A DNA stretch of 52,368 bases, from contig JACMPQ010000020.1 in assembly GCA_014377425.1 (NCBI GenBank), forward strand, positions 1-52,368, given 5' to 3'. Within the stretch, counting starts at the first letter, position 1; each line of letters starts with the position of its first letter. The DNA comes from Microbacteriaceae bacterium. Lineage in GTDB: Bacteria > Actinomycetota > Actinomycetes > Actinomycetales > Microbacteriaceae. This document shows positions 40,498-45,274 of the stretch, piece after piece. The notes under the pieces are model-generated. The model did no database searches and was not told the origin of the DNA. It saw nothing but the letters and a program-made list of their open reading frames with translations. The translations under genes were made by a program, and so were the position numbers.

Positions 40498-41190
40498 ATG
40501 TCACTGATCGCAGCCAACAACCTTTCGAACGATCGGCCCACAGAGCCCGTTGTCCTTCCCTCCGCTCCCCGCCGCCTCAACTCCGTTCCCGACGGCTCGG
40601 AGGCACGCGGCTTTGTGCTCTATGTCGGAATTGACGAAGGGAAGGCGAGAGCCGCCGGCACTACCCTCGCAGAGGTTGTTTCGCGACTGAAAGAGTTGGC
40701 TGCCGAACTCGTCCCCAGTTCGGAGACCTACGCCGCCGTCGCTTTGGCACCGGCCGGCTCCGGTGGGAGGGATGTCGACGTGGTGCGTCTTGCCCTCGGG
40801 GATCCGTCTGCGCTCACCCAGCACCGTCCGGTTGCAGAAGTTGCTGAGCCGAAACGCGACGGTGTAGTCATCGACCTTTCCCGCAAACGTCTACTGCTCA
40901 ACGAGGACTCGGCGGGGCTCACCTACAAAGAGTTCGAGCTGCTGCAGTATTTGGTGCTTCGGGAGGGCCGCACCATCGAACGGGCCGAGCTCATCACCTC
41001 ACTCTGGCCCGACGATAGCGACGAAGCCCCGAACGAACGAACCATCGACGTGCACGTGCGACGGTTGCGCTCGAAGCTTGGCCACTACGAGGACATCGTG
41101 CGTACCGTTCGCGGGGTCGGTTACCGGTTTGATCGCCACGCCGACGTGTCGATTCGTTACTCCTCCACCCCGAGTCCGGACGTCTTCTAG
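40498..41190 (+). CDS. Winged-helix (OmpR/PhoB-type) transcriptional regulator without receiver domain
   Basis: A 230-residue DNA-binding protein. The C-terminal winged helix (about 130-215) reads LTYKEFELLQYLVLREGRTIE, then WPDDSDEAPNERTIDVHVRR and IVRTVRGVGYRF, the OmpR family pattern. The N-terminal part has no phosphoacceptor receiver; it holds RGFVLYVGIDEGKARAAGTT and SETYAAVALAPAGSGGRDVD, a conserved actinobacterial module of unknown role. The ATG at 40498 with AAGGA upstream is chosen over the longer frame from 40369. The stop shares CTAG with the convergent PAP2 gene. Long 5' leader, see promoter and uORF. Confidence 0.88.
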   Translation: MSLIAANNLSNDRPTEPVVLPSAPRRLNSVPDGSEARGFVLYVGIDEGKARAAGTTLAEVVSRLKELAAELVPSSETYAAVALAPAGSGGRDVDVVRLALGDPSALTQHRPVAEVAEPKRDGVVIDLSRKRLLLNEDSAGLTYKEFELLQYLVLREGRTIERAELITSLWPDDSDEAPNERTIDVHVRRLRSKLGHYEDIVRTVRGVGYRFDRHADVSIRYSSTPSPDVF

Positions 41191-41888
41191 CCGCTGAAGC
41201 CGCGCTTCTCACGAGTAGACAGCCGTTTCACGTCGGGAGAGTCGGCTCTGCGCTCGCGCTCTAAATAGGGCCCGACGAGTCCAAAAAACACCAGCGGGAT
41301 GCCGAGGCCAATGAGTGCGCCACCTATCGTGTCGCTGAGCCAGTGCACCTCGAGATAGGTGCGGCTAAGCATCATCAGCGGAAGATAAATCGCCCCGGCC
41401 GCGTACAGCCACCGCCTCCGGATCAGAAGGCCCAACAGCACAAACAGGGTGGCCGCGTTGGCGGCGTGTCCAGAAGGAAACGACCCCACAATTGCGCCCA
41501 GAGAATCCACACCGGGCCGCGGGCGATCGAAGAAAAGCTTGAGGAGCACAACGCTTTCGTCGCTCACTAGGGTCACGACCGCGAAAAAGCCTGCTGCCCA
41601 CGGGCGACGGAACACCCCAAAAAGGGCCACGATAATCAGCGGGACGATCACACCGCCGATAATTCCGCCGCCGACGTCGGCAAGAAACTGGGAGGCAGTT
41701 GACGCCGGGGGGCTCTGGTGCTGCCGGAGAAACATCAGCCAGGAAACATCCGTCGCCAGCGGCGCTTTATCGCGTGCACGAGAAATGAGAGCGCCCAGCA
41801 CCACACAGCCGAGCACAGCGAACATCCCCGCATAGAGATAGCCACGAGAAAGGGCCCGCATCGATGACCCTCGCCTCGACATTTTCAT
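41187..41888 (-). CDS. PAP2-family phosphatase, membrane-bound
   Basis: Lipid phosphatase of 233 residues with about six membrane helices. The three PAP2 motifs are KLFFDRPRPG, SFPSGHAAN and RTYLEVHWLSDTIGG, with the catalytic histidines in the last two. Likely substrates are phosphatidate, phosphatidylglycerol phosphate or undecaprenyl diphosphate outside the membrane. It ends in a shared CTAG with the regulator gene and is divergent from the WxL-partner gene. Confidence 0.92.
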   Translation of the reverse strand: MKMSRRGSSMRALSRGYLYAGMFAVLGCVVLGALISRARDKAPLATDVSWLMFLRQHQSPPASTASQFLADVGGGIIGGVIVPLIIVALFGVFRRPWAAGFFAVVTLVSDESVVLLKLFFDRPRPGVDSLGAIVGSFPSGHAANAATLFVLLGLLIRRRWLYAAGAIYLPLMMLSRTYLEVHWLSDTIGGALIGLGIPLVFFGLVGPYLERERRADSPDVKRLSTREKRGFSG

Positions 41889-42090: not shown

Positions 42091-42870
42091 ATGCTTATCG
42101 CCGTCACTGGCCCTCCCCGCCACCGTTCAACAGCACTGCGCGCCGGTCACAATTTTGCCAGAACTCTCACTGCGGGGCTGGCGCTGACATTGGCCGTAGC
42201 CGGCGCAGTTACTCTGGCTCCCGCGCTGTCGGTGACGCCTGTGCCAGCCGCTCGGGCCATTGACAACGGCGCGCTCGGTATCCGTCCATCCAACGGCTCC
42301 GACTTCTTCCGCCTGCGACTGGCCCCGGGTTCGAGTGTGAAAGCCGTGGCGATTGTTACCAATCACACGGCGCAACCGGTGACGCTGGTGACCTACCCCG
42401 TCGACGGGGCAACCACTGCGAACGGCAGTTTCATTCTGAATCCGCGGGCGGCGTCGCTGAACCAGGTGGGTCGCTGGGTGCAACTCGGCTCATCCCGGCT
42501 CGAGCTGCCGGCGCGGTCAGAGAAACCGCTGTTGTTTACGATTCAGGTTCCGCAGAATGCGTCAAAAGGCGAATACGCCGGCGGAGTCATCATTGAAACC
42601 CTCCCTGTCGACGGGGTAACCCAGGGAACCGGAACCGCGGCGCGCGTAGACGTGGTGTACCGGCAGGGTGTGCGAATTTATTTGACGGTAGCCGCGGATG
42701 ATTTACCCCGGTCGTCACTCGTAACAACGCCCAAGTCTCCGCCCCCAGTCGGCGAAAATCTGCTCGGGCCCGCGGCGCTTCTGATCGTCACTGCCCTCAG
42801 CGGATGGGGTTTTGTAGCCTGGCGCGCGCGAAGCAAAAAATCGAAGCGTCCGGCTGGAGCACACCGTTAG
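42091..42870 (+). CDS. DUF916-like WxL-partner protein, exported and membrane-anchored
   Basis: A 259-residue exported protein. A basic start with a long hydrophobic signal (LTAGLALTLAVAGAVTLAP) ends near AARA. The ectodomain resembles the peptidoglycan-binding WxL-interacting module (DUF916): IRPSNGSDFFRLRLAPGSSVK, VAIVTNHTAQPVTLVTYPVDG, LELPARSEKPLLFTIQVPQN and GEYAGGVIIE. A C-terminal helix LLGPAALLIVTALSGWGF then ends in RARSKKSKRP, placing the tail in the cytoplasm. The ATG at 42091, or the GTG just before it, follows GGAAGG. It sits 49 bp before the ice-binding gene, whose C-terminal WxL-like domain would be its partner. A fold-level assignment from reading, not a search. Confidence 0.75.
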   Translation: MLIAVTGPPRHRSTALRAGHNFARTLTAGLALTLAVAGAVTLAPALSVTPVPAARAIDNGALGIRPSNGSDFFRLRLAPGSSVKAVAIVTNHTAQPVTLVTYPVDGATTANGSFILNPRAASLNQVGRWVQLGSSRLELPARSEKPLLFTIQVPQNASKGEYAGGVIIETLPVDGVTQGTGTAARVDVVYRQGVRIYLTVAADDLPRSSLVTTPKSPPPVGENLLGPAALLIVTALSGWGFVAWRARSKKSKRPAGAHR

Positions 42871-42919
42871 CCGGCGTGCTCGCGGCCGGGCGCGTCTCAC
42901 CCTCGGCACCGTTGCTACC

Positions 42920-45274
42920 GTGTGCCTTGCCCTCGTGGCCAGCCTGCTCTCCGTGCCGCTAACCGCACAGGCAGCGACCGCAACCATAGCTCTGGGCAGC
43001 GGCGCCAGCTATTCGGCGCTCGGCGGAACCTCGGTATCGAACTCCGGCTCCACCGTGGTGATGGGAAGTGTGGGCGCCGGAAGCAGCGGCTCAATTAGCG
43101 GCTTCCCACCGGGCAAAGCAACCGGAAGCCTGCACTCCGGCGACACCGCTGCGGCGCGCGCGCACACCGACCTGGTCGCTGCCTACCGGGACGCCGAAAG
43201 TCGCATACCAACCGCCACCATCACCGGGGATTTGGCTGGCTTGACATTGGTTTCCGGCGTTTATGGCGCAACAGCCGCCGTTTCTCTCAGCACCACCTTG
43301 ACCTTGGACGGCCAAGACGATCCCACCTCGGTGTTCATCTTTCAGATTCCGGCGGCGTTTAGCGCCGCCGCGGCCACTCAGGTCAAGCTGATTCGTGGAG
43401 CGCAGGCGGGCCGAGTTTTTTGGCAGGTGACCGGGGCCGTGACCCTCGGGGCCGACGCCACTTTTACCGGCAGCGTGCTGGGGTATGCCGCAATCACCGT
43501 CGGGGCGAGTGCCGCCGTGGTCGGTCGCGTGCTCTCAGTAAACGGCTCCGTCACCCTCAGCTCCAACGCCATCAACCCGGAAAGCCCGGTTCAACTGGGA
43601 ACCGCCGGCAGCTACTCGGCGCTCGGCGCGGTGGCGGTAACCAATACCGGGGGAAGCACCATGAGCGCCAACGTGGGGGTGAGCCCCGGGAGCAACATCA
43701 CCGGGTTCCCTCCCGGGTTGACCTCTGGATCGCTTCATCCGGGCGATGCCGAGGCAAATCAGGCGCAGGTCGACCTGCACGCGGCGTTTGCAGATGTCAG
43801 TGCCCGGGAGAAAACCGCGAGCCTCTCCGCGAGCTTGAACGGGCTGGTTCTCACGGCGGGCGTCTATCAGGCGGTAGGAAGCGTGGCGCTGTCGTCGGCG
43901 ATCACCCTCGACGGTCAGTCGAACCCCAACTCGATTTTCATTCTTCGCATTCCGGGCGGTCTGAGCGTGGCCGCGAACAGCCGCGTTGTGCTGCTCAACT
44001 CCGCCAGCCCCGACCGGGTCTTTTGGCAGATCGCCGACGCCACAGATATCGGAGCCACGAGCAACTTTTCCGGCACGGTTCTGGGGCTCGGGTCGATCCA
44101 TTTGGGCACCGGCACCCATTTCACCGGCCGTGCACTCAGCCTCACCAATTCAATTGTGATGGATGACATCGCGCTAGAGACCCTCGTGCCGGTGGCGATC
44201 AACACGGCCGTCAACTACTCCCTCTTGGGCGGTACAGCGCTGAATAACACCGGGGCGACGGTGGTGAACTTCAACGTCGGAACCAGCCCAAGCGCCGCGG
44301 TAAGCGGATTTCCACCCGGAATCAGCACCTCGGGTGCGGTTCATCAGGCTGACGAAAACGCGAGACTCGCTCAGGCAGACGCCCAGACGGCCTACAGCGA
44401 TTCGCTGGAGCGGCCGCCAACCCTGGTTGTCACGGGCGACCTCGCCGGCTTGACCCTCCAGTCGGGAGTGTTCTTCTCTGCAGCCGCACTGTCCCTCAGT
44501 GGCACTCTGGTCTTGGACGGCCAAAATAATCCGAACGCCGTTTTCATTTTCAAGGTAAACGCCGCCTTCGGTACCGCCGCTTATAGTGTCGTTCGCCTGA
44601 TCAACGGCGCCCAGCTCGACCGAGTGTTCTGGCAGGTCAGCGGCGCTGCCACCCTCGGTGCCAACTCCATCTTCTACGGCAACCTGGTCTCCCCCGCCGC
44701 CATTGCACTGGGCCAAAACATGACTTTGCACGGTCGCGTGATCAGTCTCAACGGGGCGGTGAGCTGTTCCACCGCCTCTGTACTGAGCCCCAGCCCCGAC
44801 CCCGGCACGCTCACCGCCACAAGCGACAGCGTTACCCTCACCGGGGTTTTACTCAACGGAACGAGCACGCAATATTCCACCGGGCAGTCGAAGGGTTGGT
44901 CGATCGCCGACCTGCGCGACAGCGGGGCCGGCTGGACAATGTCGGTCTCGGCCACCGACTTGGTCAGTGCCGGCGGGTCGGTGGAATCCGTAGCGCGCGT
45001 TTTGCCACCGGCGAACCTGGAAATCGATCCCGGCACCATCACCTCCTCGAGCGGTGCCGACACGACGGCGAATCTCACCTCGACCTCGCTGATGATGAGT
45101 GGTGCCTCCCAGTCGATGGTGGCCTCCAGCGGGTCGAGTCGGGGAACCTACGCCTTCAACCCCACCTTCCGGCTGTCAATACCGGCGGAGGCATTTCGAT
45201 CCAACTTTTCGGGCGAAATCAACGCTTCGCCCCTGAACCCGTACATCACAGTGTTGACCGTCACAATTTCCTGA
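42920..45274 (+). CDS. Secreted ice-binding protein: three DUF3494 domains plus C-terminal WxL-like domain
   Basis: A 784-residue exported protein. Three tandem beta-helical ice-binding (DUF3494) domains lie at about 23-215, 222-417 and 424-615. Each opens with SYSALGG-type sequence, has a SGFPPG motif, a GDLAGLTL..GVY stretch, LDGQ.NP.S.FIF, VFWQ, and ends near GR.LS.NG/T. The C-terminal domain (about 630-784) has GWTMSVSATDL and GTYAFNPTFRLSIPAEA, like WxL wall-binding domains. The encoded GTG gives a signal with little positive charge; an in-frame Arg-rich stretch upstream suggests a non-standard start (see findings). The family inhibits ice recrystallisation or fixes cells to ice. Wall display through the neighbouring DUF916-like protein is inference. 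Confidence 0.85.
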   Translation: MCLALVASLLSVPLTAQAATATIALGSGASYSALGGTSVSNSGSTVVMGSVGAGSSGSISGFPPGKATGSLHSGDTAAARAHTDLVAAYRDAESRIPTATITGDLAGLTLVSGVYGATAAVSLSTTLTLDGQDDPTSVFIFQIPAAFSAAAATQVKLIRGAQAGRVFWQVTGAVTLGADATFTGSVLGYAAITVGASAAVVGRVLSVNGSVTLSSNAINPESPVQLGTAGSYSALGAVAVTNTGGSTMSANVGVSPGSNITGFPPGLTSGSLHPGDAEANQAQVDLHAAFADVSAREKTASLSASLNGLVLTAGVYQAVGSVALSSAITLDGQSNPNSIFILRIPGGLSVAANSRVVLLNSASPDRVFWQIADATDIGATSNFSGTVLGLGSIHLGTGTHFTGRALSLTNSIVMDDIALETLVPVAINTAVNYSLLGGTALNNTGATVVNFNVGTSPSAAVSGFPPGISTSGAVHQADENARLAQADAQTAYSDSLERPPTLVVTGDLAGLTLQSGVFFSAAALSLSGTLVLDGQNNPNAVFIFKVNAAFGTAAYSVVRLINGAQLDRVFWQVSGAATLGANSIFYGNLVSPAAIALGQNMTLHGRVISLNGAVSCSTASVLSPSPDPGTLTATSDSVTLTGVLLNGTSTQYSTGQSKGWSIADLRDSGAGWTMSVSATDLVSAGGSVESVARVLPPANLEIDPGTITSSSGADTTANLTSTSLMMSGASQSMVASSGSSRGTYAFNPTFRLSIPAEAFRSNFSGEINASPLNPYITVLTVTIS

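Follow-up and report, generated by a model that had tools for sequence, protein, structure and literature searches.

Can a Gram-positive bacterium fasten itself to ice with the surface machinery of the WxL system? This question is raised by two neighboring genes, P0002 (42091..42870) and P0001 (42920..45274), in a stretch of 52,368 nucleotides that represents positions 1 to 52,368 of contig JACMPQ010000020.1 from the Microbacteriaceae bacterium assembly GCA_014377425.1 (hereafter "the window"). P0001 combines three tandem DUF3494 domains with a C-terminal WxL-like domain, and P0002, which is encoded directly upstream, is a reduced WxL-interacting protein (WxLIP; DUF916). The pairing of the two genes is conserved in other genomes of the family, as are residues of a predicted ice-binding face. 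On balance we regard it as probable, though well short of certain, that both proteins form a cell-surface ice adhesin on a WxL display platform. All features of the pair lie on the forward strand (+).

Domain composition of P0001 and P0002

The initial annotation of this DNA had read three tandem DUF3494 domains in P0001, which is borne out by the Pfam profile PF11999 (DUF3494) with matches in three stretches (E 2.2e-134; 446.1 bits versus a cut-off of 28.7). Their limits were set with our own hidden Markov model (HMM) and correspond to residues 22-218 (42983..43573), 222-419 (43583..44176) and 424-619 (44189..44776) of a frame of 784 codons, counted from the listed GTG start and aligned with 13 relatives. 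Its closest relatives of solved structure are ice-binding or antifreeze proteins; IBPv (5uyt; E 5.7e-43) is the best match in sequence searches, and 6bg8 is also among the matches. The accompanying claim that such proteins usually carry one domain and sometimes two describes no absolute rule, since triples were already known, but they are indeed uncommon: triple-DUF3494 architectures are reported to make up 1.64%/1.51% in metagenome-assembled genomes (MAGs) from the Arctic (PMC9957290).

The C-terminal domain of P0001 (residues 626-784; 44795..45271) was characterized with PF13731, our own profile, hhalign and AlphaFold2. A scan of genome contigs with a WxLIP alignment yielded 27 named loci, whose genes were classified with our own HMMs. 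The WxL-like domain of the window was aligned with 52 equivalents from 26 of these loci, leaving out two short matches, one of 122 residues in L083 and one in L094. PF13731, the Pfam WxL profile, is matched at E <= 0.01 by 48 of the 53 domains, and our own WxL profile assigns 214 bits to the tail of P0001. Comparison of the WxL-like profile with three annotated WxL proteins of Bacillota (Paenibacillus, Terribacillus) in hhalign resulted in 97.9% (E 4.8e-13, 130 columns), versus 2.3% in the control against WxLIP. The first motif is kept as W-x-L in 48 of the 53 domains and as W-x-V in four, and the domain is predicted to be all-beta (AlphaFold2; mean predicted local distance difference test, pLDDT, 93.3). 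VIA-align of this model returned mostly pilin-like folds with Z <= 7.8, which may reflect a common arrangement only, and no WxL chain of 9i25 among the matches listed; a PDB search with the WxL-like sequence profile gave nothing meaningful (best E 0.37). The strict definition of WxL requires two W-x-L motifs (PMC9772566). Profile homology is present and the pair of motifs is not, hence the tail is, judged by its sequence, WxL-related but outside this two-motif definition. The WxL-like tail of the initial annotation is thereby upheld for the family, with the window domain itself under the Pfam cut-off, and neither the profile searches nor hhalign places it outside WxL.

The WxL-interacting partner P0002 comprises 259 amino acids with a signal peptide, a PGBD, a membrane helix and a basic tail. 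PF06030 (WxLIP_PGBD) is matched with 38.8 bits versus a cut-off of 27.3, and also by all 27 aligned WxLIP proteins (the window and 26 of the named loci; L094 was left out). The WxLIP family profile retrieved the Enterococcus faecium WxLIP from the PDB (E 0.0015), and VIA-align of the P0002 model placed 9i25_C, a WxLIP bound to a long WxL protein, at the top (Z 14.7, 133 residues, 2.9 Å), followed by 9i1y_A (Z 13.2) and by unrelated immunoglobulin (Ig) folds and chaperones from Z 11.2 down. The DUF916-like nature that had been proposed for P0002 is thus confirmed by profile and structural match, neither of which places the protein elsewhere. The PGBD extends from about residue 59 to 205 (42265..42705) according to AlphaFold2 pLDDT and the alignment to the Enterococcus faecium WxLIP (P0002 residues 59-203). 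The mean pLDDT of the P0002 model is 74.7; its core is confident (93-98 per 10-residue block in residues 61-170 and 96 in residues 191-200), whereas the loop 171-190 and the C-terminal part are poorly determined and residues 224-242 do not form a confident helix. Export and a C-terminal helix with a basic tail had been suggested as well. Two hydrophobic stretches are present: the N-terminal one is strongest in a 19-residue span that starts at residue 30, and the C-terminal one occupies residues 224-242 (19 residues, mean Kyte-Doolittle 1.84). Direct sequence reading shows the basic tail behind the latter (42760..42867 for segment and tail); the C-terminal membrane helix is indicated by hydropathy only. 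The WxLIP of Cryobacterium sp. Y57 (L083:6217-6984) reads as 255 amino acids because of a late start of its frame, and its shortening differs from that of P0002.

The frame of P0001 opens at 42818, before the stop of P0002 at 42870 on the same strand, so the pair looks like a single transcription unit. It is preceded by a PAP2 family gene on the opposite strand (41187-41888).

Conservation of the locus in Microbacteriaceae

A gene for three DUF3494 domains plus WxL is located directly downstream of WxLIP in 13 of the 27 named loci, namely 11 from Cryobacterium (L073, L074, L075, L077, L079, L081, L082, L083, L086, L092, L093), one from Frigoribacterium sp. CG_9.8 (L090) and one from the MAG LF-bin-143 (L068). 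Cryobacterium has been described as inhabiting cryospheric environments (PMC10067761). Two further loci harbor a gene with one DUF3494 domain plus WxL directly upstream of WxLIP (L078:4500-5732 in Cryobacterium sp. Y11; L087:4610-5794 in C. levicorallinum). The ice-binding proteins of Subtercola vilae, which are reported with 380-389 amino acids and an unexplained second half (PMC6518244), could belong to this one-domain type. The remaining loci comprise nine with WxLIP, a WxL gene and no DUF3494 match in the available stretch (L069-L072, L076, L080, L084, L085, L091; L070 and L071 are from Cryobacterium), one with a DUF3494 gene truncated at the contig end (L089), one with a different large WxL protein (L088) and a fragmentary one (L094).

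All 13 three-domain loci contain at least one small stand-alone WxL gene, and ten of them have such genes on both sides, if the shortened match of L083 and a gene of L092 about 1.8 kb from WxLIP are counted. Their composition matches that of the Bacillota cluster as described in PMC10599100. The WxL cluster of the window consists of one WxLIP and one WxL gene, and the "two-gene system" of the initial annotation accordingly holds for the pairing, which is conserved in other genomes, but represents a reduced form.

In a sample of 299 Microbacteriaceae genomes, WxLIP is present in 77 and DUF3494 in 102. The distance between WxLIP and three tandem DUF3494 domains is at most 2 kb in six of them (G000, G078, G139, G141, G193, G243); all but G000, the genome of the window, are also among the 13 named three-domain loci. 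An order-wide sample of 297 genomes, 19 of them with DUF3494 and 63 with WxLIP-like proteins (E <= 1e-10), revealed no new neighborhood of DUF3494 and WxLIP outside Microbacteriaceae; both are adjacent only in G000, G078 and G141. Co-location in the two samples was read by eye from tables. The genome searches considered up to 12 WxL and up to seven WxLIP candidates in each genome.

The related loci are under purifying selection. The ratio of nonsynonymous (dN) to synonymous (dS) substitutions is 0.11-0.20 in the six closest pairs of the ice-binding protein and 0.17-0.27 in the six closest WxLIP pairs. In a domain tree without support values, domains 1, 2 and 3 of the window pair with those of LF-bin-143 by position, which is indicative of a triplication prior to the split of these two lineages.

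The window genome encodes three further DUF3494 proteins. One candidate for a second ice adhesin is located on contig C100 (L018:6970-10464, - strand), where one DUF3494 domain is followed by seven Big_13 Ig-like stretches in a protein of 1165 amino acids. Contig C97 (L017:6774-8644, - strand) harbors a small WxL-like gene (200 amino acids) followed by a full-length WxLIP (421 amino acids), the same order as in Arthrobacter loci without DUF3494. The WxL-like protein is the genome's own paralogue of the P0001 tail and scores 23.2 bits against PF13731, below the cut-off. On contig C55 (L016:1721-7689, - strand), a protein of 1631 amino acids adjoins a WxLIP; it matches beta-propellers and may end in a WxL-like domain (24 bits, below the cut-off). 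Contig C7 (L015:1153-1842, + strand) encodes a stand-alone WxL-like protein of 229 amino acids, with no PF06030 match reported on the contig.

Predicted ice-binding face, proposed mechanism and alternatives

Five first-row residues of the ice-binding face per domain were taken from the IBPv paper (PMC5673226) and mapped via the 5uyt alignment onto 44 domains. The row consists entirely of Ala, Gly or Ser in 12 of the 14 domains 1 and in 12 of the 14 domains 3, and all three window domains exhibit such a small-residue row. When the columns are shifted by -5 to +7, domains 1 and 3 together do not exceed 13 of 28, versus 24 in register; the counts were taken over related sequences and are therefore not independent. 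A second row was inferred from T214, which sits two residues past A212 according to the IBPv paper (PMC5673226), and reads T-T-T-T-T in both single-domain variants. The two rows of the window are S-S-A-A-A / S-T-T-T-S in domain 1, A-S-S-A-G / T-V-H-D-S in domain 2 and A-A-A-A-A / N-S-A-T-G in domain 3, and the faces are thus not degenerate throughout. In the family as a whole, the main ice-binding faces are probably those of domains 1 and 3, with domain 2 acting as more of a spacer.

In the proposed mechanism, P0001 would be exported and its three DUF3494 beta-solenoids would project outward as an ice-contacting arm. Its WxL-like domain would dock on the PGBD of P0002, which would be tethered to the membrane by the C-terminal hydrophobic segment; docking is proposed because of the homology to 9i25 and the conserved pairing. 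WxL and PGBD may also touch peptidoglycan, as proposed for Bacillota, and ice would replace the host surfaces that are the target of known WxL clusters. The initial annotation had likewise suggested a surface ice-binding system with a WxL anchor: the domain identities and the pairing stand, and from them we infer ice binding, docking and display. PapD-like chaperones are also similar to the P0002 model (Z about 10), as are pilin subunits to the WxL-like model (Z < 8, not significant); this may hint at docking by strand donation.

Several observations weigh against an ice adhesin of this kind. PF13731 assigns the tail of P0001 (about 160 residues) 19.7 bits in the full protein and 24.5 bits alone, versus a cut-off of 25; its first motif is W-T-M (W-x-M; 44933..44941), and the Trp of the second motif is present in none of the 53 aligned domains. 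Foldseek found nothing at E <= 0.001 for the WxL-like model among solved folds, and for P0002 it ranked a human PapD-like domain (E 1.7e-9) ahead of the 9i25 WxLIP (E 1.2e-8). The first face row is entirely Ala, Gly or Ser in one of the 14 domains 2, that of the window, and in neither single-domain variant. Ser, Thr and Asn account for 3.21 of 5 residues in the second row, which is matched at another offset (3.36), hence the argument rests on the first row. DUF3494 is frequent in the family and occurs on plasmids of Streptomyces and Curtobacterium, so its mere presence is no proof of ice binding or of a cold niche.

To these points must be added the peculiarities of the window, which would also suit a decaying, no longer functional copy of the Cryobacterium-type cluster, an explanation that we consider somewhat unlikely. 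The listed GTG of P0001 at 42920 falls within the signal peptide, whose basic n-region (RRARGRAR...) is encoded by the in-frame upstream extension at 42854..42919. This open frame contains no ATG, GTG or TTG from the in-frame stop at 42815 to 42920; a GGAG is located upstream of the listed start, at 42856-42859. Eight of the nine relatives shown (of 13) start within ATGA or GTGA instead. The listed start thus needs revision; the coordinates and architecture of the initial annotation agree with the profile matches and domain limits. P0002 has 259 amino acids as opposed to 329 to 421 in the six WxLIP first aligned, and the gap corresponds to their second Ig-like region; neither a profile scan nor the alignment with these six detected an HBD/DUF3324 domain in P0002. 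The relatives carry a second region at this position, yet none of the 27 matches PF11797 at E 0.01. Our own HMMs, applied in six frames, gave no significant hit to a small WxL gene or a relic of one in the 52-kb window beyond the tail of P0001, and the W-x-M motif is likewise compatible with decay. However, all 784 codons are open, the three domains and the tail are intact, and P0002, though it has lost a domain, still ends in a hydrophobic segment and a basic tail. The genome also retains the small WxL gene and full WxLIP on C97 and another small WxL gene on C7, and comparison of the window with LF-bin-143 revealed a dN of 0.41 versus a dS of 1.39. The odd start and the trimmed P0002 reflect either a trimmed anchor with an unusual start, a decaying locus or an assembly error.

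A different function is conceivable for an intact locus. P0001 and P0002 might be surface-bound modifiers of ice growth, i.e. inhibitors of recrystallization that act close to the wall and protect the cell, with no adhesion to ice. Characterized DUF3494 proteins are mostly antifreeze proteins or recrystallization inhibitors, and a molecule with two faces, in domains 1 and 3, would lend itself to growth control; the genome also encodes additional DUF3494 proteins. This explanation is nonetheless unlikely, given that a fixed membrane partner in 15 of the 27 loci constitutes a display arrangement and that a freely secreted protein would shield a larger volume.

We consider it very unlikely that the DUF3494 domains bind a ligand other than ice, e.g. 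a polysaccharide or a eukaryotic surface, and that P0001 is an ordinary adhesin. The wide distribution of DUF3494 in Microbacteriaceae would fit such a role, and hosts are the presumed target of Bacillota WxL clusters (PMC10599100, PMC9772566). The mapped small-residue row is, however, conserved in domains 1 and 3, the one-domain variants exhibit a pure Thr row, the nearest solved relatives bind ice or act as antifreeze proteins, and many holders belong to Cryobacterium. Finally, an unrelated pilin-like beta-sandwich with a coincidental WxLIP neighbor is barely credible as the C-terminal domain and largely refuted, because the low PF13731 scores of the window and of two of four relatives scanned singly (19.5 and 23.2 bits), the pilin-like neighbors and the missing second Trp are opposed by the match of nearly the whole family to this profile, the two other relatives above its cut-off (34.6 and 25.8 bits), the hhalign result and the constant pairing with WxLIP.

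Relation to known systems and significance

The ice-binding protein of Shewanella frigidimarina, which we take to be 6bg8, reportedly contains tandem beta-sandwich domains and is said to have been proposed as a new type of ice adhesin. Like P0001, it is a proposed surface protein with an ice domain of the DUF3494 type, but it differs in its beta-sandwich extender and has a single ice domain; to our knowledge, neither WxL nor WxLIP is associated with it. The ice domain of MpIBP from Marinomonas primoryensis has a fold other than DUF3494. MpIBP shares the proposed job of a surface protein that keeps the cell on ice, but it is described as a 1.5 MDa RTX-type Gram-negative adhesin with wholly different anchoring, and in 2016 it was termed the sole known example of an adhesin that holds ice (PMC5014055). 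IBPv resembles P0001 in its tandem DUF3494 domains and comparable face rows; it has two domains, was studied as a soluble protein, and the available part of its description mentions no WxL domain (PMC5673226).

The clusters of Bacillota consist of small WxL, large WxL and WxLIP (DUF916/DUF3324) proteins (PMC9772566, PMC10599100). Gut bacteria employ the WxL docking module to present adhesins for their host. The loci described here share with them a large protein with a C-terminal WxL domain, a WxLIP with a membrane helix and, in the related loci, small WxL genes. They differ in their actinomycetotal host, in the N-terminal DUF3494 domains that take the place of host adhesins, in the second motif without Trp and, in the window, in the missing second domain of WxLIP. 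The Enterococcus faecium WxLIP (9i25) is the best structural match of P0002, but the identity is 16% and P0002 corresponds to only one of its two Ig-like domains, the first.

DUF3494 and WxL/WxLIP are each known, and their union as a conserved cluster appears to be new; we found no publication joining DUF3494 or ice binding with WxL in the literature covered, subscription journals and preprints lying outside it. Tentatively, and with less confidence than for the adhesin as such, the pair may represent the first ice adhesin of a Gram-positive bacterium. WxL/WxLIP would then be a ligand-neutral platform with an exchangeable arm that cryosphere Microbacteriaceae have loaded with DUF3494, and the species of the window would have trimmed it to an anchor of PGBD and helix, the "host-binding domain" being dispensable for ice.

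WxL clusters, which occur mainly in Bacillota, have been read as devices for host adhesion and virulence (PMC9772566). If the ice adhesin proposed here is real, the WxL platform would be a general display device that is not confined to host adhesion, and Microbacteriaceae would possess a Gram-positive solution for staying on ice, which has so far been demonstrated for an adhesin of a Gram-negative bacterium (PMC5014055). With the cluster present in named Cryobacterium strains, this is directly testable.

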